This document shows, in pieces, positions 9,843 through 63,880 of a stretch of 64,000 nt of DNA. How positions within the stretch are numbered: the first letter of the stretch is position 1; the number at the start of each line of letters is the position of its first letter. The notes under the pieces were generated by a model that was not told the DNA's origin, did no database searches, and saw only the letters and a program-made list of their open reading frames with translations. The DNA comes from a virus: positions 1 through 64,000 of the IMG/VR virus record IMGVR_UViG_3300028734_000019. One strand, 5' to 3'. The translations under genes and the position numbers were made by a program.

Positions 9843-10052
9843 ATGTGGAAATTCCTTATTATATCACTTTTTTTCAACGTAATATTATTTTCTACTTATA
9901 AAACATTTGGATTTGAAGTGACAATTATATTTGCGTTAGCTATTATATGTTCAAGCCTTATTAATCCAACAATTTTAAATAAAAAGAAAAAAATAATTCA
10001 AAGACCACCCCAACAATTTTATTCTGCTAATAAAAAACAAGTTAGACGTTAA
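9843..10052 (+). CDS. Small membrane protein, two helices
   Basis: 69 residues with two hydrophobic segments (about 3-20 and 25-45) and a basic tail (KKKKIIQRPP...KKQVRR). Probably an inner-membrane protein with the basic tail in the cytoplasm. It overlaps the start of the ATPase gene by one base. Function unknown; a holin or lysis accessory role is possible by size only. Confidence 0.65.
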   Translation: MWKFLIISLFFNVILFSTYKTFGFEVTIIFALAIICSSLINPTILNKKKKIIQRPPQQFYSANKKQVRR

Positions 10053-10714
10053 TGCTAAGAGATTATCAAAAATGCGCATTCAATAAAATTATTGAATATG
10101 ATAAATCTATAATAATATGGCCAAGACAAACAGGAAAGAGTTTATTAATAAATAAAATTATAGAAAATTTTGTTTTAAATAATAATAATAAGATAATGTT
10201 ATTTATTACTGATTTGAAAAGTTATTTTAGTAATTCGATATCAAGAATACAAACAGATATAGATAATGTTGTTGTTAGATATAAAAAAAATGATATTAAT
10301 TTTATAAATAATAACAAATTAATATTTTTATCAATAAAAGATGATATACCAACAATATTATTAAAATATAAACCAGAATTGATAGTATATGATGGTTATA
10401 TGGGTGTGTATAAGGATGTTAATAAATTTTTAGAATTTAATTCATATTATAGTATTATAAAGTGTAAATTAGTTTTTACTTTTTTTTATAATATAGATTT
10501 AATCAAGACTGCAGATTGTAATAATGATTTTTATATAAATATATTTCCATATGATAAAAATACTAAATCTATATTTGATTCAATCGACTCCAATCTAAAT
10601 TCTGATGTATTAAAAGACTTGAGTTATAAATCTTGTTATTTATTGGATTATTATGATGAATCATATATTAGAAAACAGAAAATACAAGCATTAAATAGTT
10701 TAAATTCTATTTAA
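10052..10714 (+). CDS. Short terminase/helicase-like P-loop ATPase
   Basis: 220 residues opening LRDYQKCAFNKIIEYDKSIIIWPRQTGKS: the L-R-x-Y-Q block and Walker A (PRQTGKS, about residues 25-32) are typical of the ATPase half of T4-like terminase large subunits and of superfamily 2 helicases. A Walker B-like segment (LIVYDGY, about 110) follows. There is no second ATPase lobe or nuclease domain, so it is a truncated relative, about a third of the usual length. It ends YIRKQKIQALNSLNSI, a member of the C-terminal R-K-x-K tail family. Could be an inactive regulator of the packaging motor; that is inference. Confidence 0.55.
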   Translation: MLRDYQKCAFNKIIEYDKSIIIWPRQTGKSLLINKIIENFVLNNNNKIMLFITDLKSYFSNSISRIQTDIDNVVVRYKKNDINFINNNKLIFLSIKDDIPTILLKYKPELIVYDGYMGVYKDVNKFLEFNSYYSIIKCKLVFTFFYNIDLIKTADCNNDFYINIFPYDKNTKSIFDSIDSNLNSDVLKDLSYKSCYLLDYYDESYIRKQKIQALNSLNSI

Positions 10715-10726
10715 TACTTGTATTTT
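10679..10726. terminator. Long inverted repeat shared by two convergent gene ends
   Basis: Arms AAAATACAAGCATTAAATAG (10679-10698) and CTATTTAATACTTGTATTTT (10707-10726) pair along 20 bp with one mismatch. The repeat covers the 3' ends of 10052-10714 (plus) and 10700-11074 (minus), so it encodes similar C-termini (K-I-Q-x-L-N) on both strands and can act as a two-way terminator. Confidence 0.85.
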
Positions 10727-11074
10727 TTTATTCCTGATTATTGAATTGCTTTTTTTGCTCCATTCATTCATATCAAAATATTCTTTACCATAAATACACC
10801 AGTTATTATAATACCAACCAGTAGAAGGTTTTCTAGATATACATGATGAACCGTAAATATTATGCTCTTTTCTATTGCGATAATATGCAATTATTATATC
10901 AAGATTATTGTGTTTATTATTTATTATAAATTTAATATCTTTATATTTTTTGTATTTTTTAGGAATTTTATACCAAAAATTGTGTTCAATGATATTTTCC
11001 CAATTAGAACAACCATCTTCTTCTATTACTAAATAATTTATTCGGTTTTCTACTATTTTATAAATTTTCTTCAT
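10700..11074 (-). CDS. Unknown 124-residue protein with R-x-K-K-I-Q tail
   Basis: Basic, Tyr/Trp/Asn-rich protein (W at several conserved-looking sites, e.g. GWYYNNWCIYG near residue 86). It ends SIIRNKKIQVLNRI, the tail type found across this window. Its start overlaps the end of the SbcC-like gene on the same strand by 17 nt. No known domain recognised. Confidence 0.7.
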   Translation of the reverse strand: MKKIYKIVENRINYLVIEEDGCSNWENIIEHNFWYKIPKKYKKYKDIKFIINNKHNNLDIIIAYYRNRKEHNIYGSSCISRKPSTGWYYNNWCIYGKEYFDMNEWSKKSNSIIRNKKIQVLNRI

Positions 11075-22671: not shown

Positions 22672-23457
22672 ATGATAATGGAAGAAAAAAAATTTTTTAA
22701 TTTTAACGGTGATGAAGCATTCGATTTAAATACAGAATATACAAATTTATTTGTAGATGGAGATAACCAAAAAATTAGTACAAACGATAATAAAATTAAA
22801 GATGCTGAAAAGATTATTTCAGAAACAGGACAGAAATATATTGAAAGTAAATCCCTTCAAAAATATGAATACCTATTTACCAATTTAGATTTATTTTTAA
22901 ATAGATTTCAAACTGATTCAGTAGAAGTAAAATCTATGACTAAAGAAGATAGAGATAAATTGTTTGGATATGGTAGAGAACTATTCTCAACATATCAAAC
23001 TCAATATAGTTCATTGAATTTTAATTTTGAACTCTCTATTAAAGAGTGGAATTATATGGATAATATATTAACAAAAAAATTGTCATATAATGGAAATGAA
23101 CTTTTCAATTTTTGGGAACTTTTCACCAAATTTATTGATCCAACAAGAAATTATATCAAAAGTTTACCAAAAGGAATCGAATCATTCGTTCCAGCTTGCT
23201 CAATACAAAGTTTAGTTTTAGTTAGTCACTTGTTGATGAAACATGAAGAAAAAGGATCAACTGATCATTTCTTTTATTTTAAAAATGTATTAACTGAAGT
23301 TGGTTTGATGACAAGACTTTTTAATGCTTATGGAGTAGTATTAGAAAGATACACCAATATGTTTAACAATTGGGTAGATGCATTAAATACTATGGACGGA
23401 TATAATAACATAGATAGAATAGATGAACCAGGAACAGTATCAGAAACACAGCAATAA
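22672..23457 (+). CDS. Unknown 261-residue protein of the structural cluster
   Basis: Helix-rich, aromatic-rich protein with no recognised motif; a Trp-containing pair of helices at about 120-160 and a hydrophobic helix near 180-200 (SIQSLVLVSHLLMKH). The start could also be two codons later (MEEKKFF). It lies in a plus-strand run with short gaps (20-40 nt) to its neighbours, so likely co-transcribed with 22210 and 23423. Structural role is a guess from position. Confidence 0.7.
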   Translation: MIMEEKKFFNFNGDEAFDLNTEYTNLFVDGDNQKISTNDNKIKDAEKIISETGQKYIESKSLQKYEYLFTNLDLFLNRFQTDSVEVKSMTKEDRDKLFGYGRELFSTYQTQYSSLNFNFELSIKEWNYMDNILTKKLSYNGNELFNFWELFTKFIDPTRNYIKSLPKGIESFVPACSIQSLVLVSHLLMKHEEKGSTDHFFYFKNVLTEVGLMTRLFNAYGVVLERYTNMFNNWVDALNTMDGYNNIDRIDEPGTVSETQQ

Positions 23458-23785
23458 TAAGGAGATTTTTGATGAAATAAGAGACATAATATATAATAAT
23501 AGCGAAAATGCTATTGATATAAGTGATGTTAAGATATCTTCATTGAAAAATCTTTATATTATTGATGAGATAAAAAATCTCAAGGTTATCGAATTAGATA
23601 ACCTTGATGATTTTATGTCTTATGTAAATTATGATCACTACTTGATATTTAAATATAATAATTCTTATTATTTCTGTGATACAGAACTTGCATCGTATTT
23701 AGATAAACTTAGTTTAATTAAAATAACTGATTTTAGCTTATATCTCAGAAAAGATAAAATAAATAAAATAGAGAATTTTAATTGA
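23423..23785 (+). CDS. Small unknown protein overlapping the previous gene
   Basis: 120 residues; begins 34 bases before the previous stop in another frame. No later in-frame ATG gives a sensible length, so the overlap is accepted, though a non-ATG start nearer 23457 is possible. Alternating Ile/Leu strands and a Tyr-rich part (NYDHYLIFKYNNSYYFCD) suggest a beta-rich fold. Confidence 0.65.
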   Translation: MNQEQYQKHSNNKEIFDEIRDIIYNNSENAIDISDVKISSLKNLYIIDEIKNLKVIELDNLDDFMSYVNYDHYLIFKYNNSYYFCDTELASYLDKLSLIKITDFSLYLRKDKINKIENFN

Positions 23786-25196: not shown

Positions 25197-25200
25197 AAAA

Positions 25201-25238
25201 TTAAAAAAGCTTCATATTTAAATATGAAGCTTTTTTAA
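25201..25238. terminator. Perfect 38-bp palindromic bidirectional terminator
   Basis: TTAAAAAAGCTTCATATTT and its exact complement, between convergent genes. On the minus strand it also encodes the last residues (KKLHI and stop) of 25218-25499, so the C-terminal tail of that gene is written in terminator DNA. Confidence 0.9.
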
Positions 25239-25499
25239 TTTCTCTTTTCTTGTGTGCTTAATAGAAAACTCTAAACATTCTTCTGAAATACTTTCATAAG
25301 TTACTCCATTTATTGTCTTATTTGTCATCATTCCTATGTTATCAGAGTCCCAATAATCAGTATAGTAACAATTACCATATTCTGAAAATCCAATAATTGA
25401 CATAGGAATTTTATGATACCAAGGATATTCTTTAATGTCATTGCAAATTTCAGAACAAATAACAATGTCACCTATTTTAAATTTTCTTTCCATTTTCAA
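25218..25499 (-). CDS. Small SH3-like barrel protein with RKEKLKKLHI tail
   Basis: 93 residues. FKIGDIVICSEICND near the start is the G-D-x-V-x-C pattern shared with at least four other small proteins here (55855, 58452, 58772, 62485), predicting a small beta-barrel. It ends THTRKEKLKKLHI, a member of the C-terminal tail family. Overlaps the next upstream gene by 23 nt. Function unknown. Confidence 0.75.
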   Translation of the reverse strand: MKMERKFKIGDIVICSEICNDIKEYPWYHKIPMSIIGFSEYGNCYYTDYWDSDNIGMMTNKTINGVTYESISEECLEFSIKHTRKEKLKKLHI

Positions 25500-25934: not shown

Positions 25935-26420
25935 TCATTTATTTTTAATGACTTGATTAATGTTTTTTAATTTTTCTTTTCTTGAGTATGCTAATTTGTA
26001 TTTCATAACTCCTTCTATTTTATTATTTAAACATTGTTCCATTAAATATTCAGATTGATGTATTACATATTCTTTAGAACATTTTTCAATACTATCTCCA
26101 TAATGATTAGTATCAAATCCTATCATCCAATAATTATCTAATTTTTTATAATTATCTATTGTTACATCACCATCAATTTCTAAATTATCAATCCATTCTA
26201 AAAATGATTTAGAATCAAAAAATTGACCATATGTTAATCCTCCATGTACACTTATTGTATTCATATCATCATATGAAACTCCATATGATGGATGATTATT
26301 AGGTATTAATATATAACCATTACCCCATCCGAATTCCATTTTTAATGAAAATGTACTTAGTAGAGGTAAATTTTTAGTGATATAATTCTCAATTACTAAT
26401 GTGTAAATTCCGTATTTCAT
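25935..26420 (-). CDS. Unknown 161-residue protein with SRKEKLKNIN tail
   Basis: An aromatic, Gly/Asn-rich alpha/beta protein. Ends AYSRKEKLKNINQVIKNK, a C-terminal tail family member with a short extension. Preceded by a clear Bacteroidota-type promoter (26441-26470), so this gene probably starts the transcript that runs into the small genes and tRNA-Arg at 25.2-25.9 kb. Confidence 0.75.
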   Translation of the reverse strand: MKYGIYTLVIENYITKNLPLLSTFSLKMEFGWGNGYILIPNNHPSYGVSYDDMNTISVHGGLTYGQFFDSKSFLEWIDNLEIDGDVTIDNYKKLDNYWMIGFDTNHYGDSIEKCSKEYVIHQSEYLMEQCLNNKIEGVMKYKLAYSRKEKLKNINQVIKNK

Positions 26421-31661: not shown

Positions 31662-31708
31662 AATTTTTAATTTAGATGATTTAAATGATTGTTGTTTTAA
31701 TTTCAATA

Positions 31709-40790: not shown

Positions 40791-41867
40791 TTAAATTTCA
40801 TAAATTGAACAACTTTTAGCACAGTTCCTACATTTTATGACACCATCACGGAATTTTTTTGTTTTTTCATTTTGCCAAATATCTTCAATGAAATCATTAC
40901 AATCAATTACAGATAATCCTTTTTCCCAACCTTCTGTATCAGGTGAAAATGAACATGGAAAGAAATTGCCATTGACATCAACATATAAGCTATATAGTGT
41001 GCTTTCACAAGGTTCTGCACATTGAATCATTTTTTCTTCATTTACATGTCCTTTAATTGCTTTCATGAATTTTTGTGCTGAGCAAGAATCAAATCCCATA
41101 GGAACAGAATTAGTAAGAGCATAATTAGTAAGATTAGAAAATTGTTCTTGAGTCAATTGATGAAATTTGCCTTTGCTTCTACCTTTTGTTTTTAAACTCA
41201 AAAATACTAATGCTCCTAATTTTTCAAGTCTTGGATCAGTTTTTATATCATCCATTATTTCAAATGCCTTTTCATATGTTTCTTGACTAATCATATAGTG
41301 AATATTCACTTGTTTCATTCCACGATCAGTAAGTTTTTTAATAGCGTCATATGATAGATTTTTATCATAAATAGAAACTGCACATGCTCCGCACATCTCA
41401 GAAATTTTATCAAATTCATCATCATCAACGTCACCATTTATTGTCAAATTTGGTGTGACACCATTATCTTTCGCATATTTGAAAATTTCCCACATTTCAG
41501 GATGTCTTCTCAATGTACCACAACCAAATGCGATTTGTCCAATACTTGATGGTAATTTATCGAAAACTTTTTTGAATGTTTCTAATGACATATTATGTCC
41601 ATGATTACCATTACTCTTATAGCAGAATTTACATGGCCCTATTCCAGGAACACCTTCACAAATTTCAGCAATTTCGATATCTGCAATTTCAGGTAATCCA
41701 AGATTTAAATCTCCATCATCTTCTTCTGTTTTACCCCATCTGGCAAAGAATCCTGTTTTTTTATTAAATAGAAAATTGTAGTTTTCTGATTTTAAAATTT
41801 TCACTTCATTGTTATCAACAATTAGTGCTTTTTCTCCGTTTGCCAGTTTTAAATTAGTTTTTTTCAT
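40791..41867 (-). CDS. Radical SAM enzyme with SPASM-like C-terminus
   Basis: 358 residues. The iron-sulfur motif is C-x8-C-x2-C (CEGVPGIGPCKFC, about residue 70), a variant spacing of the radical SAM C-x3-C-x2-C site that I recognise from phage relatives. Downstream are the partial TIM-barrel (GQIAFGCGTLRRHPE, LTINGDVDD, VSIYDK) and a C-terminal Cys-rich part (CAEPC...YVDVNGNFFPCSF, CRNCAKSC) that fits an auxiliary cluster of the SPASM/twitch type used by peptide-modifying enzymes. Substrate unknown. It is within 10 kb of the seven tagged proteins, which makes them candidates. Confidence 0.8.
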   Translation of the reverse strand: MKKTNLKLANGEKALIVDNNEVKILKSENYNFLFNKKTGFFARWGKTEEDDGDLNLGLPEIADIEIAEICEGVPGIGPCKFCYKSNGNHGHNMSLETFKKVFDKLPSSIGQIAFGCGTLRRHPEMWEIFKYAKDNGVTPNLTINGDVDDDEFDKISEMCGACAVSIYDKNLSYDAIKKLTDRGMKQVNIHYMISQETYEKAFEIMDDIKTDPRLEKLGALVFLSLKTKGRSKGKFHQLTQEQFSNLTNYALTNSVPMGFDSCSAQKFMKAIKGHVNEEKMIQCAEPCESTLYSLYVDVNGNFFPCSFSPDTEGWEKGLSVIDCNDFIEDIWQNEKTKKFRDGVIKCRNCAKSCSIYEI

Positions 41868-42120
41868 ATTTTTTCAAGTTGTTTAATTTTTGTCTTCTTT
41901 CAAATTTCAATGATGTTTCAAATAATCCAATATAATATAATGAATATGGTTTTTCTTTTATTCCAACACGTATAATGACATTATCAATTAATCCTTTATG
42001 TATCTCAGATATAGTATAAGTTTCATCAACACTCAAATCTGATGGTATTCCAAATTCCTCAAATATATTTGAAGGTTTTTTTAGAATAATTTTATCTCCA
42101 ATATTCAAATTTGTTATCAT
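41854..42120 (-). CDS. Small SH3-like protein with RRQKLNNLKK tail
   Basis: 88 residues: NIGDKIILKKP at the start (barrel-like G-D-x-I), TYTISEI, and the end KFERRQKLNNLKKYEKN, a tail family member. Overlaps the start of the radical SAM gene by 14 nt, so it is expressed with it. Confidence 0.75.
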   Translation of the reverse strand: MITNLNIGDKIILKKPSNIFEEFGIPSDLSVDETYTISEIHKGLIDNVIIRVGIKEKPYSLYYIGLFETSLKFERRQKLNNLKKYEKN

Positions 42121-44826: not shown

Positions 44827-45612
44827 TTATAAATTATATTTTTTTGAGTCTTTTTTTAACTCTTTTTTTTCCAAATATTCAACATAAAATTCCAGAACAT
44901 TAAAATCAACAGGAATTCCAACTTTTGAATTATTGTCATATCTAATGATTTTAACATTTTTACAATCATTTTTACTTAATGTTGTTGAACTAGAATCCGA
45001 AATGTAATATGGCACACCATCTTCATTATCATTATCATTATCATTACTATTTTGAAACCCAAATGCATTTAGTAAAGCAAGCTTGATTCTTCCCATGTTA
45101 GTATAATATTTTGATTTCAATGGTTCTCCGTTTAAGAATATCTTATACTTAGAAACAACTAAATTTTCATCTTTAGCTTCACCAACCAAGCAAGTTCTAA
45201 AATCAGATAACTTTGCTTCAAATTTTTCACCAGCATATGGACCATCTAAAATTTCAATTATCAAATTGTATTTTTCATCGACAACTTTAATTTTTGTGTC
45301 TTTTTTAATAGTAAATGCTGGTTTTGGGCTACCACCTTTTGATAATGCATACTCATACAACCAATCTTTTTTCTGTTTACTCATATAGTCCAATTTAGAT
45401 GTGTCAGCTACCCAAGAATCAGCGCCATTTGGTAAATTACAGCCATTTTCATCATTTTTAATACGATGATCACACACCCATTTATAATAGTAGTGTAAAT
45501 CAAAATCCTTTGCTGCTCTCCAATCAATGTCTAATTTCATTGTTTGCTTAGTAAAAGGTACTTTTGATTGAACTGTAGAATTATGTTCGTCAAATGTTTT
45601 TATTTTTTTCAT
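44827..45612 (-). CDS. Protein with capsid-targeting-like start and SKKYNL tail
   Basis: 261 residues. The start MKKIKTFDEHNS fits the capsid-targeting pattern; the end ELKKDSKKYNL is the same tail as the amidoligase operon genes 40 kb away. Body: aromatic region with WRAAKDFDLHYYYKWVCDHR, then a beta-rich half with KIKVVDEKYNLIIEILDGPYAGEKFEAKLSDF (barrel-like, KOW/SH3-type). Two shared termini on one protein strengthen the case for functional tags. Confidence 0.75.
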   Translation of the reverse strand: MKKIKTFDEHNSTVQSKVPFTKQTMKLDIDWRAAKDFDLHYYYKWVCDHRIKNDENGCNLPNGADSWVADTSKLDYMSKQKKDWLYEYALSKGGSPKPAFTIKKDTKIKVVDEKYNLIIEILDGPYAGEKFEAKLSDFRTCLVGEAKDENLVVSKYKIFLNGEPLKSKYYTNMGRIKLALLNAFGFQNSNDNDNDNEDGVPYYISDSSSTTLSKNDCKNVKIIRYDNNSKVGIPVDFNVLEFYVEYLEKKELKKDSKKYNL

Positions 45613-48169: not shown

Positions 48170-48325
48170 TTATAGATTATTTAATCTATTTATTTTTTCT
48201 ATTCTATCATTTTTAAGTTTTTTTATTTCAGCTTCTCTATCATATATTATTTTAAATGTACAGTTATAAAATGCTGGATTTGCTACTATATCATAAGTGA
48301 AAAGTTTACGTAAGTTTACTTCCAA
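48170..48325 (-). CDS. Short protein with TTG start and R-I-E-K-I-N tail
   Basis: An open frame of 52 codons beginning with TTG, overlapping the end of 48306-48617 in another frame. It encodes LRKLFTYDIVANPAFYNC and ends KNDRIEKINRLNNL, resembling the C-terminal tail family. The frame has no ATG, so it may be a gene with TTG start or the end of a frameshifted larger gene. Confidence 0.45.
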   Translation of the reverse strand: MEVNLRKLFTYDIVANPAFYNCTFKIIYDREAEIKKLKNDRIEKINRLNNL

Positions 48326-48617
48326 TTTGTTTCAATTTTTTTTTTCTTAGATGCTTAACATACTCATTTGGAAAGTTATCATAATCTAATACTGGTTTTT
48401 TAGTTGCTTCTTTTATGACATCTAATTGCCATTGTATTGATTCAATTGGATCTTCACATTCACCTTCATATGATAATATTGTTATTGGATTTTCTGTACA
48501 AGCTTCAGGTATATTAGTTTCATCATTATAATACACCTCATAAACACCAAAATGTACATCTGAGTATGAATCTGATGCTATTCTTCTTGCTAATATTCTA
48601 TAATTCCAATTTGACAT
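48306..48617 (-). CDS. Small conserved phage protein with LRKKKLKQIG tail
   Basis: 103 residues: MSNWNYRILARR start, FGVYEVYYNDE, and a middle W-Q-L-D-V-I-K-E-A-x-x-K-P-V-L-D motif (about residues 62-77) that recurs in small phage and bacterial proteins of unknown function. Ends EYVKHLRKKKLKQIGSKLT, a tail family member with a short extension. Confidence 0.7.
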   Translation of the reverse strand: MSNWNYRILARRIASDSYSDVHFGVYEVYYNDETNIPEACTENPITILSYEGECEDPIESIQWQLDVIKEATKKPVLDYDNFPNEYVKHLRKKKLKQIGSKLT

Positions 48618-48900: not shown

Positions 48901-49194
48901 TTAATTTATTAAATTTAATTTATTTAATTTATTCTTTCTTGTTACATTTATTATTGCAATGTCAATGAGTTTATCAGTGTATTCATCTTTATAATATCTG
49001 AATTTATATGAATTCTTCATAATTTCCAATTGATGCACGTTAGCATTCATCAATTTATTAAGAATACCTTCCTCCAATTTTTTGTAGAAAAGCATTTCTC
49101 CGACTACTTTAATATCCTTATATTTTAAAGTAAGTTCAGAAATTAATTCTAAGTCATCACAACTTTTTTTTAATTGTTCAATTAATTCCTTCAT
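48901..49194 (-). CDS. Small helical protein with RKNKLNKLNLIN tail
   Basis: 97 residues, helical throughout (DDLELISELTLKYKDIKV...). Ends INVTRKNKLNKLNLIN, a clear tail family member. Confidence 0.75.
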   Translation of the reverse strand: MKELIEQLKKSCDDLELISELTLKYKDIKVVGEMLFYKKLEEGILNKLMNANVHQLEIMKNSYKFRYYKDEYTDKLIDIAIINVTRKNKLNKLNLIN

Positions 49195-53311: not shown

Positions 53312-53340
53312 CAAAGATACAACTATTTTTTATGCTTCAA
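53312..53340 (-). promoter_or_regulatory. Bacteroidota-type promoter for 53107-53286
   Basis: Minus strand TTG, 18 nt, TATCTTTG, lying at the end of the upstream gene 53330-53629. Confidence 0.65.
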
Positions 53341-53629
53341 GTAAAATATTATTATTTTTTGTGATTTTTTGTGATTCTTCTATTTGTTTTAATTTTACTT
53401 TCCTTTCTTCTTTCTCAGAATAAAAAAATCTATTAAAATTAGGAAGTGAATCATAATCATCTTCTAATGAGAAACAATAATAATTATATTGATAATTAAC
53501 AATAATACGCATCTCAATCATATATGTGTATATCTCATTAATTTCATAATATTTATTTATTATAAAACCATATATTGATTCTTTGCAACGATATTTCCTT
53601 TCTTTATTTATTTTTTTATTATCTGACAT
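53330..53629 (-). CDS. Small protein with EERKVKLKQIEES tail; paralog of 53619-53861
   Basis: 99 residues, Tyr-rich beta body (YGFIINKYYEINEIYTYMIEMRIIVNYQYNYYCF) and the end YSEKEERKVKLKQIEESQK..., shared with the next gene (YTEKEERKLKLENIKNVR). The conserved K-E-E-R-K-x-K-L shows that the tail is recognised beyond the last ten residues. Confidence 0.75.
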   Translation of the reverse strand: MSDNKKINKERKYRCKESIYGFIINKYYEINEIYTYMIEMRIIVNYQYNYYCFSLEDDYDSLPNFNRFFYSEKEERKVKLKQIEESQKITKNNNILLEA

Positions 53630-53861
53630 TTTTAATATTTTCTAATTTTAATTTCCTTTCTTCCTTCTCAGTATAAAAATAATCATAAAAATTTAAATAT
53701 GTATAATAACCTTCCTCAAATATAAAATTTTCATAAATAGGATAATTATCCAAATATATTGAAATACAATTAAAAGATATCATATGAATATCATAAATAT
53801 TACCTTTAATACAATACTTTGAGTTTTTCTTACAAAGATGTTTCCTATTTATATTGAACAT
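53619..53861 (-). CDS. Small protein with EERKLKLENIKN tail; paralog of 53330-53629
   Basis: 80 residues with the same plan as its neighbour: Cys/Lys/Tyr-rich start, alternating hydrophobic strands, and the tail YTEKEERKLKLENIKNVR. It overlaps the neighbour by 11 nt. Confidence 0.75.
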   Translation of the reverse strand: MFNINRKHLCKKNSKYCIKGNIYDIHMISFNCISIYLDNYPIYENFIFEEGYYTYLNFYDYFYTEKEERKLKLENIKNVR

Positions 53862-53956: not shown

Positions 53957-55843
53957 TTATTTTACTTCCTCAAAATCTACGTCTGTCACATTTTCAGAAT
54001 CATCTTTATTAGGTGATTGAGTTTCATTTGTTGGATTAGAATCATTTGTTGACTCATTTTGAGATTTTTCATAAAGCTTAGAACTAATATTTTGCCAAGA
54101 ATCATTCAATTCTTTAATGCAGTTATCAATAGTATCAACATTTTGAGTTTTGTGAGCTTCTTTAAGATTACCAAGCTTAGAATTCAATTCAGTTTTGTTT
54201 TCTTCAGTTAACTTATCAGAAAAATCTTCAATTTGTTTTTCTGTTTGAAAAATCATAGAATCTGCTTGATTAAGTTTATCAACTTTCTCTTTTTCTTTTT
54301 TATCTGAATCAGCATTTTGTTCAGCTTCATTCTTCATTCTTTCAATCTCTTCTTTTGTTAACGATGATTTACCTTCAATTCTAATATCATTGGATTTTCC
54401 AGTTGCTTTATCAACAGCTTTGACTGTTAGAATAGAATTGCTATCAATGCTGAATGTGATTTCTACTTGTGGTGTACCTCTACGAGCAGGTGGAACATCA
54501 AGTGAAAATGTACCTAAGTGTTTGTTGTTTACATACATAGGTCTTTCTCCTGTACAAACATTAACCTGGACACTTGGTTGGTTATCCGAAGCCGTACTGA
54601 ATACCTGTGACTTACTTGTCGGTATTGTAGTATTTGCTTCTATCATTTTAGTTGATACACCACCCATGGTTTCAATACAGAAGCTCAACGCTGTAACATC
54701 AAGTAATAATATGTCAGTTGTATCTCCAGCAAGAACGGATCCTTGTATAGCAGCCCCTGATGCTATGGCAGTATCAGCGTTAAGAGACTTGTTAGATTTC
54801 TTACCAAAATATTTTTCAATGTTATCTACTAAATATGGTATTCTTGTGCTACCTCCTACAAGAACAATTTCATCAATATCACTTATATTCTTATTGCTTT
54901 TTTTAATTGATGATTTAATTAATTTCATTGTTTCGTCAACATAAAATTGAATTAATTGTTCAAATTTGGCACGAGTTATAGTTTTAACTAAATGTTTTGG
55001 CGTTCCGTCAACTGCAGTAATATAAGGTAAATTGATTTCTGTTTGTGTAACATTAGATAACTCAATTTTTGCTTTTTCTGCTGCTTCTGTGACACGTTGA
55101 AGAGCCATAGGATCTTTTCTTATATCTACTCCTGATTCTTTTAAAAAATCATCAGAAATGTAATTAACAAGTGCATCATCAATTAAATTACCTCCAAGAT
55201 CTAAACTACCATCTGTTGCTATTACTTCAAATAAGCCATCTTCAATTGAAATTGAACTAAAATCTGATGTACAACCACCACTATCTATTATAAAATATAA
55301 TTTATCAGTTTCATTTTTTATGTTTAATGAAGCAGCAGTTGGTTCTGATATAATTCTTTCTACTTTTAATCCAGCAATTTCTCCTGCTACTTTTGTGCTA
55401 CTTCTTTCATCTGAATTAAAATACGCTGGTACTGTTATTACAGCACTTTCTACATTTGCTCCAAGATAATCCTCTGCTGTTTTTTTCATTTTTTGAAGAA
55501 TGATTGCAGATATTTCTTCTGGTGAATATATTCTATCTCCAATTTTTACAGCAGCTTTACCATTATTATCTACAATGTCATAAGGACGTTTTAGATGTTT
55601 AACTTCGTCATAAGTTCTACCAATAAGTCTTTTGATATTAAAAATTGTGTTTTTTGGATTTAATGCTGCTTGCCTTTTAGCTGCATCACCAACTTTAATT
55701 TCTCCTGTTTTCACATCAAATGCAACAACAGATGGTGTTGATACTGATCCTTCTGAATTAGGTATGACAATTGTTTGTCCACCTTCTACAATAGATACTG
55801 CTGAGTTATATGAACCCAAGTCAATTCCAATAATTTTTCCCAT
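53957..55843 (-). CDS. dnaK: DnaK/Hsp70 chaperone
   Basis: 628 residues, full-length. GIDLGSYNSAVSIVEGGQTIVIPNSEG (phosphate 1 loop; Tyr-Asn in place of the usual T-T-N-S), PAYFNSDERSSTK (phosphate/adenosine region), FIIDSGGCTSDFS (phosphate 2; D-G-G-C for D-x-G-G-G-T), VGGSTRIPYL (adenosine loop), then the substrate-binding domain from about residue 370 and a helical lid; the C-terminus DVDFEEVK matches bacterial DnaK tails. Variation at the active-site G-G-T region (SGGCTS) may alter ATPase kinetics. Supplied by the phage for virion-protein folding or to modify host chaperone use. No dnaJ or grpE is seen in the window. Confidence 0.92.
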   Translation of the reverse strand: MGKIIGIDLGSYNSAVSIVEGGQTIVIPNSEGSVSTPSVVAFDVKTGEIKVGDAAKRQAALNPKNTIFNIKRLIGRTYDEVKHLKRPYDIVDNNGKAAVKIGDRIYSPEEISAIILQKMKKTAEDYLGANVESAVITVPAYFNSDERSSTKVAGEIAGLKVERIISEPTAASLNIKNETDKLYFIIDSGGCTSDFSSISIEDGLFEVIATDGSLDLGGNLIDDALVNYISDDFLKESGVDIRKDPMALQRVTEAAEKAKIELSNVTQTEINLPYITAVDGTPKHLVKTITRAKFEQLIQFYVDETMKLIKSSIKKSNKNISDIDEIVLVGGSTRIPYLVDNIEKYFGKKSNKSLNADTAIASGAAIQGSVLAGDTTDILLLDVTALSFCIETMGGVSTKMIEANTTIPTSKSQVFSTASDNQPSVQVNVCTGERPMYVNNKHLGTFSLDVPPARRGTPQVEITFSIDSNSILTVKAVDKATGKSNDIRIEGKSSLTKEEIERMKNEAEQNADSDKKEKEKVDKLNQADSMIFQTEKQIEDFSDKLTEENKTELNSKLGNLKEAHKTQNVDTIDNCIKELNDSWQNISSKLYEKSQNESTNDSNPTNETQSPNKDDSENVTDVDFEEVK

Positions 55844-55854
55844 AATTTACTTTT

Positions 55855-56088
55855 TTATTTTTTATTTAATTTTTCTAATTTTAATTTTCTATATTCTTTA
55901 ACAGACATGAATCTTGTTACTCTGAATCTTCCTTTTATATCAGTTAATGAAACACTAATAGTATTAAAATAATATCCGTCATTCTTTACCTCATATGTTG
56001 AGTATTTTTTTAAATTTTTATATGGTTCATATGTAGTAGTATCATCACTATCATCAATACAAACTACAATTTCTCCTAATTTAAACAT
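55855..56088 (-). CDS. Small SH3-like protein with EYRKLKLEKLNKK tail
   Basis: 77 residues. FKLGEIVVCIDDSDD (barrel start), GYYFNTISVSLTDIKGRFRVTRF, then SVKEYRKLKLEKLNKK, one of the cleanest tails in the set. Lies 12 nt before dnaK on the same strand. Confidence 0.8.
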   Translation of the reverse strand: MFKLGEIVVCIDDSDDTTTYEPYKNLKKYSTYEVKNDGYYFNTISVSLTDIKGRFRVTRFMSVKEYRKLKLEKLNKK

Positions 56089-58196: not shown

Positions 58197-58226
58197 CAAA
58201 TGTACAACAATTAATCCAATTCACAA
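58197..58226 (-). promoter_or_regulatory. Bacteroidota-type promoter of rtcB
   Basis: Minus strand TTTG, 19 nt, TACATTTG, overlapping the end of 58211-58462 and about 52 nt before the rtcB start. Confidence 0.75.
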
Positions 58227-58462
58227 AATATTTTATTCAATTTATTCAATTTATTTTTTCTTAAAATTCTTTTACTAATGAAAAATGAATAAAATATTAT
58301 ATCGCATATGATACCAACATCTGTCATTATTGTTATTGTACTATAATTTCTACCTATTTCTAATACTTTATATTCTTTATTTACTGTTATGAGGTTATCA
58401 TTTGTATAATCATTTTTAATGCAAATTAAAAAATCTCCAACTATAATTTTGTCATATTTCAT
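58211..58462 (-). CDS. Small SH3-like protein with LRKNKLNKLNK tail
   Basis: 83 residues: GDFLICIKNDYTNDN, TVNKEYKVLEIG, and the end SKRILRKNKLNKLNKIFCELD. Barrel family with tail. Its start overlaps the preceding gene's stop (ATGA). Confidence 0.8.
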   Translation of the reverse strand: MKYDKIIVGDFLICIKNDYTNDNLITVNKEYKVLEIGRNYSTITIMTDVGIICDIIFYSFFISKRILRKNKLNKLNKIFCELD

Positions 58463-58784
58463 TTAATTTTTTTAGTTTTGATGTTCTATATTCTTTTAAC
58501 CCAATAAATCTATTTATATCAAAAACTGTATATCCATATATTTCCTCAACTTCTTCTAACATATATGAAGTATTTTGATATCTACTGCTAGTATCATCAA
58601 GTAATTCATAGCAATTTCCATCATCATCCCAATATGATTGAATTTTTTTAATGGTATATGTTTTATTTATTTCTAAAGGATTTGATTTTTTGTATTTTAA
58701 ACAATATGAAATGAAATCATAAAAAATGTTATCAGATTTAGGCGTATTATCAATACAAACCATAATATCTCCTACTTTGTACAT
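58452..58784 (-). CDS. Small SH3-like protein with EYRTSKLKKLNEI tail
   Basis: 110 residues: VGDIMVCIDNT, a longer central insertion, then GLKEYRTSKLKKLNEI at the exact C-terminus. The last codons contain the next gene's ATG, so tail and start site overlap. Confidence 0.8.
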   Translation of the reverse strand: MYKVGDIMVCIDNTPKSDNIFYDFISYCLKYKKSNPLEINKTYTIKKIQSYWDDDGNCYELLDDTSSRYQNTSYMLEEVEEIYGYTVFDINRFIGLKEYRTSKLKKLNEI

Positions 58785-59041
58785 ATTTTATTCAGTTTTT
58801 CTAATTTCATTTTTCTAATTATTTTTTTATCAGAAAAAAATCGTATTGGTACAAATTGACTCAATTTTTTGTTATCACTTCTTACCACAATTTTATTTTC
58901 AAAATGCCAATCAATATCCTCAATTTTATATTTTTTCCCTACTGTCAAATGTTGATCCCAGTAATCATTATCATCAAATGTTACACAAGTGACAATTTGT
59001 CCTACTTTAAAATCATCGTTAGTTAATTCTGTGTCTTTCAT
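58772..59041 (-). CDS. Small SH3-like protein with IRKMKLEKLNK tail
   Basis: 89 residues: FKVGQIVTCVTFDDND, LTVGKKYKIEDI, FVPIRFF, and the end DKKIIRKMKLEKLNKICTK. One of the clearest barrel-plus-tail members. Confidence 0.8.
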   Translation of the reverse strand: MKDTELTNDDFKVGQIVTCVTFDDNDYWDQHLTVGKKYKIEDIDWHFENKIVVRSDNKKLSQFVPIRFFSDKKIIRKMKLEKLNKICTK

Positions 59042-59300
59042 TTATTTTATTTAGTTTAGATATTCTCAATATTGAAATCACTTGAAGTTCAGTTAAAATT
59101 TTAATTTCATAACTATCATGTTTACTATTATAATGAAATATAATAACTACAGTATAAAGTGATGAATTGAATTCTTTAACTATTTCACGAATACTAAAAT
59201 CATATTTATTATTGAATTTTTTGTTATAATATTTTTTCAATTCTCTTAATAACAGTAGATATGATTTAGTATCTAAATTAGATACTATGTTGTCTGACAT
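59019..59300 (-). CDS. Small alpha/beta protein with LRISKLNKIN tail; paralog of 59285-59575
   Basis: 93 residues with a body different from the barrel group (YLLLLRELKKYYNKK helix, then strands), ending LQVISILRISKLNKINERHRIN. It shares the LLxELKxYY helix and the tail with 59285-59575. Overlaps both neighbours by 16-23 nt. Confidence 0.8.
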   Translation of the reverse strand: MSDNIVSNLDTKSYLLLLRELKKYYNKKFNNKYDFSIREIVKEFNSSLYTVVIIFHYNSKHDSYEIKILTELQVISILRISKLNKINERHRIN

Positions 59301-59575
59301 AATTTATTCAGTTTATTTATTCTGCTTATATTATTTAATTGAAGTTCAGATAAATAATGATGTTCTATAACATAATGATATCCTGTTAATTTATATTTTT
59401 TTTCTAATTTAACAGAAACAATATAATCATAATTGTTATTATCACTTTTCATAAATCTTAATACACTATATACATTATATCCGAACTCTGATTCTTTAAG
59501 TATATTTATATAATATAATTTTAATTCTTCAAGTAATTTTTGATATTCTGGTGAATTGCTGTTGTATTTATACAT
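59285..59575 (-). CDS. Small alpha/beta protein with SRINKLNKL tail; paralog of 59019-59300
   Basis: 96 residues; YQKLLEELKLYYINIL helix, then strands, ending LSELQLNNISRINKLNKLCQTT. The tail is present on a fold other than the SH3-like barrel, showing that it is not simply part of one domain. Confidence 0.8.
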   Translation of the reverse strand: MYKYNSNSPEYQKLLEELKLYYINILKESEFGYNVYSVLRFMKSDNNNYDYIVSVKLEKKYKLTGYHYVIEHHYLSELQLNNISRINKLNKLCQTT

Positions 59576-59903
59576 TAATTTCTATTAATTTCTGTTTTCT
59601 CATAAAAATATTATGTTCATTAACATTATCAAATTCATACAACTTATCATTAAATACTTCATAATCATTAAATGAAAGAATCACAGTTCCATGTTTTTCA
59701 AATTTAAAATAAATCTTTTTTTCACTCAAAAGAGACATTTCAAATCTCTCATTAAATTTAGTATTCAAACAATTTATTAATGCAGATAAAATAAATTCAT
59801 TTCTTTCTTCTAATTGAAAATAGTGTTCGATATAATAACAATTTTTAGGCATACCCCACAAACCATTATCTTGTTTTTTTGATTTTATAGGTATTATTTT
59901 CAT
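59568..59903 (-). CDS. Small protein with MRKQKLIEINV tail
   Basis: 111 residues, alpha/beta, Asn/Lys-rich, ending NEHNIFMRKQKLIEINV (exact C-terminus). A further body type carrying the tail. Start MKIIPIKSKK. Confidence 0.75.
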   Translation of the reverse strand: MKIIPIKSKKQDNGLWGMPKNCYYIEHYFQLEERNEFILSALINCLNTKFNERFEMSLLSEKKIYFKFEKHGTVILSFNDYEVFNDKLYEFDNVNEHNIFMRKQKLIEINV

Positions 59904-59913: not shown

Positions 59914-60423
59914 TTAATGTATATTACCTAAATTGTTCAATTCATCGTTTAATTTTGTACCAAGTGCTTCTAAATTTTTCAATTGATTTTTAACTTGATC
60001 TATACTATTATTAAATTCTTCTTTGATGTCTTCATTGTAATCAGATAATTCATCATTATTCATCAATTCATCTAATTTTTTATATAATTCTTTGTTTTCT
60101 ATGTTATTCGCAATATAATCAAATTCATCATTTTCATAATCTTGTCCATATTGGTATTCATTTTCAGATATTTTTTTATTTAAAGTTAGTATCTCATTTT
60201 TTGTTTTATCAGAAAATTCTTTAAATTTAAAAGTATAATCATCATTTATAAGAGGACACCATTTTGGTTTATATTCATTTTCATTCAAATCAATATAAGG
60301 ATTATTTAATTTTAAATAATTTGACAATACACATACATCAGTGTCTGGTTTTCCTATTGTATCATAATCATACTCAGTATGACAAAAAGGACAATTTAAA
60401 CATCCATTTACTATTTTTTTCAT
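59914..60423 (-). CDS. Protein with N-terminal Cys cluster and acidic helical C-terminus
   Basis: 169 residues: GCLNCPFCHTEYDYD and later KPDTDVCVLS...KPKWCPL give a probable zinc site (residues 8-58), then a long acidic helical region (about 75-165). N-terminal Cys arrangements of this type occur in small phage proteins. Its ATG overlaps the stop of 60420-60590. Confidence 0.7.
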   Translation of the reverse strand: MKKIVNGCLNCPFCHTEYDYDTIGKPDTDVCVLSNYLKLNNPYIDLNENEYKPKWCPLINDDYTFKFKEFSDKTKNEILTLNKKISENEYQYGQDYENDEFDYIANNIENKELYKKLDELMNNDELSDYNEDIKEEFNNSIDQVKNQLKNLEALGTKLNDELNNLGNIH

Positions 60424-60590
60424 TTTAAGTTATTTATTTTTTCAAGCTTTTGCCGTCTTTTTTCATTTGTTTTTTTTCTATTTAGCTCAGCAATCAATCG
60501 TTCATCAATTTTAAATGAGGATGGATATAAGCTTGCAAAATCTAAGTTAACTACATTAAAAATATTTTCATTTTTTTTATTCTTTTTCAC
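60420..60590 (-). CDS. 56-residue protein with DFASLYPS motif and RRQKLEKINNLK tail
   Basis: GTG-started frame of 57 codons between 60577-61230 and 59914-60423, with a 14-nt overlap at its start and an ATGA overlap at its end. It contains NVVNLDFASLYPSS (about residues 12-25), identical in form to motif A of family B DNA polymerases (D-x-x-S-L-Y-P-S), but nothing else of a polymerase. It ends EKRRQKLEKINNLK, a clean tail member. The overlaps and tail argue for a real gene. Confidence 0.6.
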   Translation of the reverse strand: MKKNKKNENIFNVVNLDFASLYPSSFKIDERLIAELNRKKTNEKRRQKLEKINNLK

Positions 60591-61230
60591 TATAATTTAT
60601 CTTTTTCAATTTTAATTTTCTATTGAATTGTATCAATAGTTCAGTATTCTTATATCTTAATACTGACAATTCAAAGCCATTAGTATTATAATGACTTTCT
60701 AATTTAGATATGAACATTTCAAAATCTTCAGATAGAATACCATTTTTTTCAAATAATTTTGGCTTTCTATTTTTATTTTCAAATATTCCTCTAATTAGAA
60801 TTTTACTTATTTCTGTTGAAAATTTTACATAATTATTATCATTGCAGATTTTCCAATTTTGATTTGATATTAATTCTTTGAATTTTTTGTTAGAATTTCC
60901 AATAATTCCCCAATAGTGATATTTTTTTTCATCATCATCGTCATCGTTACAACTACTTATGAATATTACATATGGAGTATCTTCATGTAAAGTTTTAAAT
61001 AATTCATATTTAGATTTACAATCTAAATCAAAAACAGGATAAATAACATCTTTAAATTTTGATTCTATTGATAATCCACATTTTTCATCAATATCAATCA
61101 TTTTTCTGAAGTATTTCATAATACTATCAATTGATTCATATTTCATTTTTTCTGATGAATCATAATCACTATGATGTGTATATTGACGTAAATATGTCAA
61201 TTCATTTATTTTACTTTTAAAAAAAAACAT
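60577..61230 (-). CDS. Unknown protein with NRKLKLKKIN tail
   Basis: 217 residues, alpha/beta with an acidic middle (CNDDDDDEKKYHYWGIIGNS). Ends LIQFNRKLKLKKINYSEKE: the tail with four extra residues. Largest tail-bearing protein apart from the ATPase at 10052. No enzyme motif recognised. Confidence 0.75.
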   Translation of the reverse strand: MFFFKSKINELTYLRQYTHHSDYDSSEKMKYESIDSIMKYFRKMIDIDEKCGLSIESKFKDVIYPVFDLDCKSKYELFKTLHEDTPYVIFISSCNDDDDDEKKYHYWGIIGNSNKKFKELISNQNWKICNDNNYVKFSTEISKILIRGIFENKNRKPKLFEKNGILSEDFEMFISKLESHYNTNGFELSVLRYKNTELLIQFNRKLKLKKINYSEKE

Positions 61231-62268: not shown

Positions 62269-62285
62269 AAAATAAATAAATAATA

Positions 62286-62474: not shown

Positions 62475-62484
62475 TATCTAAAAT

Positions 62485-62739
62485 ATGAAGTTTCATGTTG
62501 GTGATAACGTTATATTCATAAATAATTCTAAAAATATTTATGGATGGAATCTCAAGGAGTATAAAACATATAAAATATATGGATATTCATATCGATATTC
62601 AGATAATTTATCTGATATTTTATATTCTGTAAAATTTGGAACCACTATTCAAAGTTGGTATCTTGAATGTGATTTTATGTCAATAAAAGAATATAGAAAA
62701 TTAAAAATAAAAATGTTGAATAGTTATGGGATGTGGTAG
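62485..62739 (+). CDS. Small SH3-like protein with EYRKLKIKMLN tail
   Basis: 84 residues: FHVGDNVIFINNSKN, LKEYKTYKIYGY, and MSIKEYRKLKIKMLNSYGMW. The block SIKEYRKLKIKML matches SVKEYRKLKLEKL of 55855-56088 although the genes are 6 kb apart on opposite strands. Confidence 0.75.
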   Translation: MKFHVGDNVIFINNSKNIYGWNLKEYKTYKIYGYSYRYSDNLSDILYSVKFGTTIQSWYLECDFMSIKEYRKLKIKMLNSYGMW

Positions 62740-62989
62740 AGAAACACAAAATTTATTTCATTATATTAAATATAAGAATTGGAATAAAACTTGGAAATTA
62801 ATTAAAAATTTTGATAGAATTACTTTTGATGATACATTTATGCCATTGATTTGTAAAATAAATGGTCACAAACCATATCAACCAGATAAACAATATGAGC
62901 CAGATAGTTGGGCTTGTAATAGATGTCACAGATATATAAATTACAATTCAAGAAAAGAAAAATTAAAAAAATTAAAAAAATTAAAATGA
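62726..62989 (+). CDS. Small zinc-ribbon protein with SRKEKLKKLKKLK tail
   Basis: 87 residues with CKINGHKPY...CNRCHRYI (C-x-x-x-G-H-K...C-x-x-C, about 41-70), a short zinc ribbon of the DUF1660-like type, and the end NSRKEKLKKLKKLK. The tail codons (AAAATTAAAAAAATTAAAATGA) also form the A-rich leader and ATGA overlap of the next gene. Confidence 0.7.
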   Translation: MGCGRETQNLFHYIKYKNWNKTWKLIKNFDRITFDDTFMPLICKINGHKPYQPDKQYEPDSWACNRCHRYINYNSRKEKLKKLKKLK

Positions 62990-63303
62990 AACTTTTTAAA
63001 GATATAATAAAAACTATAATCAATTCAATTAATCCATTTTATGAAAGTAATAAACAGTTCGAACAAATCAATAAATTATTTAAAGAATTAAAAAAAAATC
63101 AATTAGATGTTTATAGATGTGAAATTGATAGACTTCTGAATATGACTGAAGATGAAAAAAAAAATGAGCATGAAAAATTGTTGATATTAGAAGCAAATCA
63201 AATCATAAATAAATTAGAATCTGATACAGAATTATACAAAGTATTTAATAATATATTAAGAAGAAATAAACTTGGAAAAATAGTAGATAATAAAAATGAG
63301 TAA
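62986..63303 (+). CDS. Small helical protein with ILRRNKLGKI tail
   Basis: Start at 62986 is chosen because the preceding stop overlaps it (ATGA); the upstream in-frame codons only run through the previous gene. 105 residues, helical, ending NNILRRNKLGKIVDNKNE, a divergent tail member. Confidence 0.75.
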   Translation: MKLFKDIIKTIINSINPFYESNKQFEQINKLFKELKKNQLDVYRCEIDRLLNMTEDEKKNEHEKLLILEANQIINKLESDTELYKVFNNILRRNKLGKIVDNKNE

Positions 63304-63880
63304 TTTAATAGAACACGCTAAAAGAGAATTTCTAAAAATAGGTTATAAACCTGTTGAAGAATGTGAAAATGATCCAGATAAATGGGTACAAGAAAATGTG
63401 TTAGAGTTACTAGAAGTTTTTTCTAAACAAGGACATTCTGGGTTTTCAGCGTCATATGCTATTAGTTATTTTACAAAATTAGCTAATTTTAAGCCAATTG
63501 CACCTATCATGTGTACTGATGATGAATGGATTGATGTGACTATGGATGATAGTGAAATGTTATTTCAGAATAATCGTTGTAGTGCTGTTTTTAAAGTATC
63601 AACTGATGGTAGTCCATATTATTTGGATGCAATTGTTTTTGTTGATGAAAATAATTCATCATATACTGGCGGAGCACTTAATAATAAGAATGAAAGTATT
63701 ACAAGCAAACAAACAATAAAAATTCCTTTCACACCAAAAACATTTTATGTTAATGTTATAGAGATTGATGATGAAAGTCGTATTAAAGATGAATCTCAAT
63801 TGAAAGAAATTTGGAGTTATTATGAACATCAAGAAACAAAATCATATATTAGATATAAAAAATTAAAAAAATTAAAATGA
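63296..63880 (+). CDS. Conserved phage protein with FSKQGHSGFSA motif; RYKKLKKLK tail
   Basis: 194 residues. HAKREFLKIG at the start, LLEVFSKQGHSGFSASYAISYFTKLANFKPIAP, YQN/QNNRCSAVFKVSTDG and PFTPKTFYVNVIEI are blocks that I recognise from a widespread phage protein of unknown function. It ends TKSYIRYKKLKKLK, the tail family, and overlaps the next start (ATGA). Confidence 0.75.
   Translation: MSNLIEHAKREFLKIGYKPVEECENDPDKWVQENVLELLEVFSKQGHSGFSASYAISYFTKLANFKPIAPIMCTDDEWIDVTMDDSEMLFQNNRCSAVFKVSTDGSPYYLDAIVFVDENNSSYTGGALNNKNESITSKQTIKIPFTPKTFYVNVIEIDDESRIKDESQLKEIWSYYEHQETKSYIRYKKLKKLK

Follow-up and report, generated by a model that had tools for sequence, protein, structure and literature searches.

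A recurrent C-terminal tail on unrelated small proteins of a putative huge phage and its relatives

A shared tail on unrelated small proteins

Bases 1 to 64,000 of the 76,108-base virus record IMGVR_UViG_3300028734_000019, a stretch called the window throughout, encode numerous small proteins that close with one common peptide, here termed the tail. An initial annotation of the window had named 23 genes for such proteins. We examined the tail in these genes, in the rest of the 76-kb record (guanine-plus-cytosine [GC] content, 24 to 25%), and in related phages.

Alignment of 26 tails from the 76-kb record defines a core, R-x-x-K-[LI]-x-x-[LI], with four shared anchors: Arg at position 0, Lys at position 3, and Leu or Ile at positions 4 and 7. 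The core mostly begins 9 to 20 residues ahead of the C terminus. The more literal motif first described, R-K-x-K-L-x-K-L-N, is the commonest form, but its Lys at +1, Lys at +6, and Asn at +8 occur in 14, 13, and 14 of the 26 tails, respectively. All 23 named genes carry R-x-x-K-[LIVM]-x-x-[LIVMF] within their last 25 residues, with the gene listed as starting at 62986 taken as the in-frame open reading frame (ORF) 62923-63303. A scan of window ORFs of at least 45 amino acids returns 27 tailed ORFs (Table 1), the additional ones being those at 23423, 32906, 35424, and 48170, and one further tailed ORF, 63877-64095, spans the window edge. ORFs were chosen mechanically, longest first, and are not gene calls.

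Across the 76-kb record, the core lies within the last 20 residues of 26 of 140 ORFs, whereas 2000 shuffles of those residues average 0.76 and never exceed 5. Read in the +1 frame, this DNA yields one match, and in the +2 frame or in antisense it yields none; 20-mers taken from the N termini and the middles of the proteins yield one and none, respectively. Inside proteins, the motif rate is 53-fold below the C-terminal rate. By shuffle, frame, and position controls, the recurrence of the tail on more than 20 small proteins is therefore real and far beyond chance, as the initial annotation had held. Its description of the bearers as unrelated also stands, as the 26 proteins, with their ends removed, fall into 26 clusters (blastp E < 0.01), and the upstream K-E-Y-R extension that it reported is found on both strands (minus at 55855 and 58452, plus at 62485). 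Some tail regions share 77 to 84% DNA identity over 49 to 70 bases. The folds proposed for the bearers find partial support at best: the P-loop ATPase (10052-10714) has Pfam matches below the cut-off only, and 8 of the 10 tailed window proteins scanned are without any Pfam match.

Table 1. Tailed ORFs of the window, followed by ORFs of the second label class and the phage DnaK (aa, amino acids; nt, nucleotides)
Position	Strand	Product	Label	Remark
10052..10714	+	220 aa, weakly P-loop ATPase-like	IRKQKIQALNSLNSI	tail DNA is an arm of a bidirectional terminator-like hairpin
10700..11074	-	124 aa	IIRNKKIQVLNRI	convergent with 10052..10714
23423..23785	+	120 aa	YLRKDKINKIENFN	absent from the initial list; tail of the G003 orthologue identical
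25218..25499	-	93 aa	TRKEKLKKLHI	tail DNA is the 5' arm of a terminator-like hairpin
25935..26420	-	161 aa	SRKEKLKNINQVIKNK	TAnnTTTG 28 nt upstream of start
32906..33544	-	212 aa	KRKDKLDEITKNL	weaker member
35424..35870	-	148 aa	SRYLKLLSLK	weak member, may be chance
39720..39974	-	84 aa	ILRYKKLKELELTK	
41854..42120	-	88 aa	ERRQKLNNLKKYEKN	
48170..48325	-	51 aa	NDRIEKINRLNNL	absent from the initial list
48306..48617	-	103 aa	LRKKKLKQIGSKLT	
48901..49194	-	97 aa	TRKNKLNKLNLIN	
53330..53629	-	99 aa	EERKVKLKQI	motif stops 16 residues short of the C terminus
53619..53861	-	80 aa	EERKLKLENIKNVR	TAnnTTTG 36 nt upstream of start
55855..56088	-	77 aa	VKEYRKLKLEKLNKK	TAnnTTTG 50 nt upstream of start
58211..58462	-	83 aa	LRKNKLNKLNKIFCELD	
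58452..58784	-	110 aa	LKEYRTSKLKKLNEI	low-confidence model: strands, then helices 72-83 and 90-109
58772..59041	-	89 aa	IIRKMKLEKLNKICTK	
59019..59300	-	93 aa	ILRISKLNKINERHRIN	
59285..59575	-	96 aa	ISRINKLNKLCQTT	
59568..59903	-	111 aa	FMRKQKLIEINV	
60420..60590	-	56-aa peptide	KRRQKLEKINNLK	
60577..61230	-	217 aa	FNRKLKLKKINYSEKE	
62485..62739	+	84 aa	IKEYRKLKIKMLNSYGMW	
62726..62989	+	87 aa	SRKEKLKKLKKLK	
62923..63303	+	126-aa ORF	LRRNKLGKIVDNKNE	
63296..63880	+	194 aa, Tad3-like (anti-Thoeris)	IRYKKLKKLK	ends the C-terminal extension
2748..3080	+	second class	N-tag MKIEKFNE, C-tail SRKFNV	
3083..3514	+	second class	N-tag MKIDKFNE, C-tail SKKFNI	
3514..3852	+	second class	C-tail SKKYNL	
4283..4753	+	second class	C-tail SKKFNV	
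44827..45612	-	second class	N-tag MKKIKTFDE, C-tail SKKYNL	
53957..55843	-	phage DnaK, 628 aa	no tail	anchor for finding relatives

Distribution among relatives and selection as amino acids

Relatives were sought through the window DnaK. Among the 39 phage records that it matches, LR756502, a 642-kb uncultured phage, ranks first at 58% identity. DnaK relatives are encoded in 225 IMG/VR stretches, of which 80 (100 to 53% identical) were kept and examined as DnaK-anchored loci. Two further genomes serve for comparison: G003, a 330-kb relative, and LR756501, a 735-kb phage. Al-Shayeb et al. (2020; PMC7162821) group their largest genomes (634, 636, 642, and 735 kb) with Lak as the Mahaphage clade and predict Bacteroidetes hosts. 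Judged by its DnaK, the window probably belongs to a huge phage that is related to the Mahaphages.

The tail is carried by 119 of 980 ORFs in LR756502 (shuffles, mean 7.0, maximum 19) and by 94 of 584 in G003 (mean 3.4, maximum 11). With ends removed, these bearers form 115 and 86 clusters, respectively. The whole LR756501 record shows no enrichment, with 3 tailed ORFs among 1019 and 4.7 expected by shuffling. Such counts shift with the rule applied (20 or 25 residues; Val, Met, and Phe allowed or not; record joined or split), being 119, 121, or 122 for LR756502, 93, 94, or 96 for G003, and 26 or 27 for the 76-kb record; under the 20-residue rule, the window by itself has 25. Among the 80 DnaK-anchored loci, 23 are enriched (permutation P < 0.01); 18 of these are distinct, 17 besides the window's own phage, since L007, L008, and L019 repeat tails of the window record and L009/L016, L010/L011, and L036/L037 are redundant pairs. 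Of the 57 loci that are not enriched, 28 contain fewer than 20 genes.

Sampled stretches of other records also carry the tail, namely, LR756504 (28/269), LR745206 (36/259), G006 (8/95), G008 (23/173), and G009 (18/130), with a slight excess in the G005 sample (4/106 versus 0.2 expected). It does not stand out in samples of G004 (2/131) and G007 (2/343 and 0/111) or in 50-kb stretches of Lak-A1 (0/78), phage G (0/76), T4 (0/86), phiKZ (0/65), and LR756508 (0/102). The records with the core span 24 to 36% GC. An apparent C-terminal enrichment in phage G is produced by a small repeated family and that in G007 by a large one, neither being a tail. The G007 family, which is paralogous and scattered over bases 1-200000, has members that start like MKNLITKEEKDQIDLICKKY and end like WNDDLTLNEENFQELLDEIKDGLE.

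The form favored in LR756502 is [IL]-R-[DNE]-x-K-[LI]-x-x-[IL]-[LG], as in RDxKLxxLGI or RDxKIxxIL. Asp, Asn, or Glu occupies +1 in 102 of the 119 tails, and Leu (65) or Gly (31) occupies +8 in 96. The residues at +4 and +8 pair as Leu-Gly in 29 tails, Ile-Gly in 2, Ile-Leu in 39, and Leu-Leu in 26, corresponding to the sub-forms KLxxLGI and KIxxIL, and 28 of the 31 tails of the Gly sub-form lie at the record ends (580 to 642 kb and 0 to 25 kb). Exactly 2 residues separate the motif from the C terminus in 57 LR756502 tails; in G003, most motifs stop 1 to 12 residues before it. The LR756501.1 record has a near-invariant octamer, D-P-Y-G-E-E-x-W. Its core, YGEExW, has 103 occurrences spread over 88 of the 1019 ORFs, with 44 sites no more than 20 residues from the C terminus, 18 near the N terminus, 36 in the middle, and 5 between. 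This octamer is possibly a processing site or a linear label particular to the LR756501 lineage.

Given protein cores are present both with and without the tail in different phages. The Tad3-like protein (Pfam Tad3, E = 3e-37, residues 2-125) matches 25 phage records, and the homologues taken from five of these (two Vibrio, Rhizobium, Enterococcus, and crAss) all lack the tail. Three of the five stop soon past the conserved domain (138, 143, and 159 amino acids). The longer ones reach 195 and 260 amino acids, and the end of the 195-residue Vibrio protein aligns loosely with the window extension and has no anchors. For phi50-12, the tblastn match overran a stop codon, and the overrun was not counted as protein. 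Homologues of tailed LR756502 proteins are tailed in 6 of 9 cases in the LR745206 sample and in 5 of 9 in the G008 sample; the LR756504 sample has no homologue of these proteins. Nor do the bearers share a function: Pfam finds 5 families among the 119 tailed LR756502 proteins and 3 among 80 of the 94 tailed G003 proteins, and PHROGs finds 8 among the LR756502 set, with a single member in each family.

The tail is selected as amino acids. In 47 orthologue pairs (25, 14, 6, and 2) between tailed window proteins and four relatives, amino acid changes affect 25 of 184 aligned anchor sites (4 more fall in gaps), compared with 226 of 547 sites in the remaining tail and, in the body, 1699 of 4294. 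Synonymous changes are seen at 31 of 159 anchor residues that are unchanged and, in the body, at 631 of 2595. A gene with several orthologues contributes several pairs, and these are not independent. When exchanges among Leu, Ile, Val, Met, and Phe are treated as kept, the anchors retain Arg in 46 of 46 cases, Lys in 45 of 46, and a hydrophobic residue in 92 of 92, compared with 55 of 98, 279 of 460, and 647 of 769 in the body (P = 2e-9, 2e-8, and 7e-7, respectively). The anchors are thus kept while their codons change, which upholds the initial annotation's proposal of a protein-level signal, for docking, degradation, or sorting, beyond A-rich drift. As evidence to the contrary, it had named tails confined to places where a start codon directly follows and conserved residues that change freely. 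We find neither: tails also occur without an adjacent start codon, and the Arg, Lys, and Leu or Ile do not change freely. In the 76-kb record, G003, and LR756502, respectively, tails are borne by 13/25, 57/193, and 60/275 overlapping genes, by 5/32, 14/124, and 15/268 convergent genes, and by 3/19, 9/84, and 8/98 genes followed by a gap of more than 60 nucleotides. Where genes overlap in strings, the motif is closely followed by the next start, which can explain the variable last residues of the tail.

Codon choice adds a nucleotide component. At LR756502 anchors, AAA makes up 80% of Lys codons (body, 61%; untailed gene ends, 69%), TTA 62% of Leu codons (38 and 43%), and ATA 69% of Ile codons (50 and 50%). 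In G003 and the 76-kb record, only A-ending Ile codons (69 and 75% versus 45 to 52%) and AGA for Arg (86 and 92% versus 75 to 84%) stand out. The rare choice CGT still occurs, at 11 of 119 LR756502 Arg anchors versus 7% in the body. This A-ending excess indicates some nucleotide preference in addition to the peptide. A local constraint at the DNA level exists as well, since three window tails are hairpin arms: the AT-rich terminator-like hairpins at 10676-10740 and 25180-25245 (20 to 23 pairs, z of -7.0 to -8.6) are built from tail codons plus post-stop sequence.

Gene class and a second, N-terminal label

The same phages carry a second class of labelled proteins, represented in the window by five ORFs (Table 1). 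In LR756502, 121 ORFs fit a loose N-terminal pattern (the N-tag), most commonly M-K-[HY]-L-K-x-[YF], with mostly Leu or Ile at position 4, Tyr or Phe at position 7, and often Glu at positions 8 to 11; the equally loose counts are 96 ORFs in G003 and 9 in the 76-kb record. Of the 584 G003 ORFs, 103 end in [KS]-[FY]-N-[LIVF] (termed KFN), and 75 of these are also N-tagged. A family scan of 99 of the 103 KFN proteins found ankyrin cores in 11, leucine-rich cores in 2, and others. The penultimate Asn of the KFN ends is encoded by AAC in 51 of 103 cases versus a 13% background, and an extra RNA-level constraint may act there.

Tail and N-tag or KFN end seldom meet on one protein. Both are found on 3 ORFs in LR756502 versus 14.9 expected (P = 5.5e-5), on 4 in G003 versus 20 (P = 7.7e-7), and on none in the 76-kb record versus 2.4 (P = 0.06); all overlaps are counted here, although several of the 3 + 4 are judged to be chance matches. 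Neighboring ORFs on one strand of LR756502 form 33 tail-tail, 40 N-N, and 0 tail-N pairs, not counting pairs in which an ORF matches both patterns. The corresponding numbers are 36, 78, and 5 in G003 and 9, 5, and 1 in the 76-kb record.

The classes differ in their upstream motifs as well. A motif that we read as late-type, TAATATATA or TTTATATATA no more than 45 nucleotides from the first start of an operon, precedes 50 of 72 N-tag operons in LR756502 versus 4 of 70 tailed ones (P = 3e-16) and 72 of 267 others. It precedes 22 of 31 N-tag and 2 of 39 tailed operons in G003; the 76-kb record has it before 5 of 6 N-tag operons and none of 13 tailed ones. Operons with both classes (4 in LR756502, 6 in G003, and 1 in the 76-kb record) were omitted from the comparison. 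In LR756502, the motif lies upstream of the portal (222545-224260) and tail sheath (192321-196172) genes; the terminase, head maturation protease, and endolysin-like genes have none directly upstream. The roughly 120 N-tagged ORFs of LR756502, mostly under the late-type motif, constitute a candidate list of virion cargo. TAnnTTTG, described as the Bacteroidota -7 element in PMC7366714, occurs within 90 nucleotides of 16 of 70 tailed, 4 of 72 N-tag (P = 0.0035), and 39 of 267 other operons in LR756502. The values are 11 of 39, 3 of 31 (P = 0.07), and 27 of 150 in G003, and 3 of 13 tailed versus 0 of 6 N-tag operons (P = 0.52) in the 76-kb record. Taken as promoters, these motifs argue strongly that the tailed genes are not late.

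Possible roles of the tail

Docking or sorting is the role that we favor over degradation. Judged from sequence, there is about an even chance that the tail is a short linear motif that, in a branch of huge Bacteroidota phages, labels early takeover proteins for docking or sorting at one common receptor. The Arg, the Lys, and the two aliphatic residues would form a single recognition face for this receptor, which could be a phage hub or a host protein. Early in infection, this would dock, sort, or concentrate the small takeover proteins at a single site or machine, in the way that the T4 capsid-targeting sequence gathers unrelated internal proteins into the head. If the tail is helical, all four anchors should lie on one face. 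One common receptor best explains the combination of unrelated bearers, four kept residues, and lack of mixing with the presumed virion label, while the low hydrophobic moment of the tails and the net-negative charge of LR756502 tails outside the anchors suggest a specific pocket rather than membrane or nucleic acid binding.

Several points weigh against a docking label. No receptor was found; the phyletic pattern (LR756502 genes with a G003 homologue and without an LR756501 homologue) yields 15 candidates, none of which stands out, and a pattern over three genomes is not evidence. LR756501 (whole record) and Lak-A1 (50 kb), presumed to infect the same phylum, are tail-less. Homologues of tailed LR756502 proteins lack the tail in 2 of 3 cases in G003 and in 2 of 2 in LR756501. 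Two structure predictions are poor (mean predicted local distance difference test scores of 43 and 45) and cannot show a free helix, although both place a C-terminal helix in the tail. That the tailed genes are early is likely, and this timing rests on the modest enrichment of TAnnTTTG. A phiKZ-like nucleus as the site of sorting was rejected, as neither the tubulin family (0/14 records) nor a homologue of chimallin was detected; the search with the phiKZ query gene, which we take to be that of the shell protein, gave 0/11 records and found phiKZ itself, and a remote homologue could be missed, several records being fragments. Finally, the anchor codons are to some extent non-neutral, and selection on the protein leaves their A-ending excess unaccounted for.

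Might the signal lie in the nucleotides instead? The initial annotation offered A-rich leaders as its alternative, and a leader, ribosome entry site, or terminator for the neighboring gene would fit the enrichment of tails on overlapping genes (13/25), the A-ending codons, and the three window tails in strong hairpins, for which it can hold locally. As a general account it is contradicted, and we regard it as exceedingly unlikely: tails occur without a close downstream gene, the other frames give next to no matches, the anchors are kept as amino acids, and the core persists from 24 to 36% GC. Compositional drift and off-frame reading are ruled out as general accounts alongside the A-rich leader by the shuffles, frames, and downstream contexts. 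The DNA identity between some tail regions and the strings of overlapping tailed genes (again 13/25 in the 76-kb record and 57/193 in G003) would also suit shared 3' ends that serve as recombination or gene conversion handles for incoming early genes, with the peptide as a by-product. This is improbable, for a DNA handle would keep DNA, whereas the anchors stay as amino acids while orthologue codons change; LR756502 and G003 have the same core with different flanking residues, and loss of DNA identity with all four anchors retained is seen in part in the orthologue comparison. The basic amphipathic helix that the initial annotation envisaged, if taken to bind membrane, DNA, or RNA non-specifically, could draw on a net charge per 13-mer that reaches +3.4 in G003 and in the 76-kb record, compared with +0.7 to +0.8 for untailed ends. 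However, the mean hydrophobic moment on the Eisenberg scale is 0.21 to 0.23 versus 0.32 to 0.33 for shuffled tails, which rules out a membrane-type amphipathic helix, and the non-anchor positions of LR756502 tails, mostly with an acidic or Asn residue at +1, average -0.5, making this reading very unlikely.

Degradation is a possible but doubtful role. A host or phage AAA+ protease would then clear early proteins at the late phase by recognizing the tail as a C-terminal degron, in keeping with its C-terminal place on many folds, with a gene class without the late-type motif, and with the motifs at the very end and the Leu or Gly favored at +8 in LR756502. A homologue of phrog_4871, labelled an ATP-dependent protease, is encoded in LR756502 and in 9 of 14 records overall, but it is also present in tail-less LR756501 and was not found in G000 to G004 (fragments), and all 14 control genomes also have matches to the family, which is hence non-specific; as its distribution does not track the tail, we rejected it as the tail reader. 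The free end is not fixed in G003, an ssrA-like Ala-Ala ending is absent from all 239 tails of three records, and one would expect a defence inhibitor like Tad3 to persist. A second capsid-targeting or virion cargo signal has the T4 precedent of a common peptide on unrelated proteins (PMC3012670 and PMC9026906), the large N-tagged class resembling virion cargo in the same phages, and the missing late-type motif directly upstream of some head genes (terminase and head maturation protease) on its side. Cargo must be made late, though, and the scarcity of the late-type motif before tailed operons (4/70 versus 50/72 for N-tag operons) renders this idea highly improbable.

The closest precedent of the tail, for which the mechanism given here is a proposal, is the T4 capsid-targeting sequence (Mullaney and Black 1996, as described in PMC9026906 and PMC3012670). 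There, too, one short peptide is carried by many unrelated small phage proteins, counter-defence proteins included: the T-even internal proteins are diverse defence proteins in which only the capsid-targeting sequence is conserved (PMC3012670). Its residues 4 and 7, the positions of the Leu or Ile and the Tyr or Phe in the N-tag, are reported to matter most for targeting (PMC9026906). The T4 sequence is N-terminal, is cleaved, and leads into the prohead, whereas the window tail is C-terminal and without the late-type motif; the two differ in end, in expression class (by promoter motif only), and presumably in destination. The N-tag of the same phages, at the N terminus, is the better match, and LR756502 encodes a head maturation protease (phrog_207; Peptidase_S77 below the cut-off). 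The ssrA tag, which ends in Ala-Ala and is read by ClpX, is likewise a short C-terminal peptide that works on any fold. It differs from the tail, which has Arg, Lys, and two aliphatic anchors, lies at a varying distance from the carboxylate in G003, is encoded gene by gene, and ends in Ala-Ala in 0/26, 0/94, and 0/119 cases. Peroxisomal targeting signal 1 is also a C-terminal address on unrelated proteins read by one receptor; it belongs to a eukaryotic organelle, and the comparison is one of working mode, not kinship. Import into the phiKZ-type phage nucleus is an instance of protein sorting in large phages. The accessible portions of the open-access literature surveyed report neither a shared C-terminal peptide for that import nor a shared C-terminal tail in huge phages.

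A broader scheme, which we consider unlikely, would extend labelling to the whole proteome, with an interchangeable C-terminal label for early docking, an N-terminal label for late cargo, and acquired host-binding proteins turned into adaptors of one phage-controlled hub. That hub may be, for example, a degradation, sequestration, or replication-site machine. Labels of another kind may serve other lineages, the candidates being DPYGEExW in the 735-kb phage and the KFN[LI] end in G003. Small proteins of large phages are mostly without known function, and a tail on about one-eighth of the ORFs of the 642-kb phage offers a single handle on them; if one receptor were found, a large presumed host-takeover class would gain a common site of action. 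In uncultured huge phages, the tail/N-tag rule may distinguish genes for early effectors from those for virion cargo. The tail is possibly also a portable tag with which to direct proteins in Bacteroidota.

Elsewhere in the window, the neighboring minus-strand ORFs 31233-31403 and 31497-31739 have a common end, FTRVPGxNKEVGGFSFYAKKE, apparently through local duplication.

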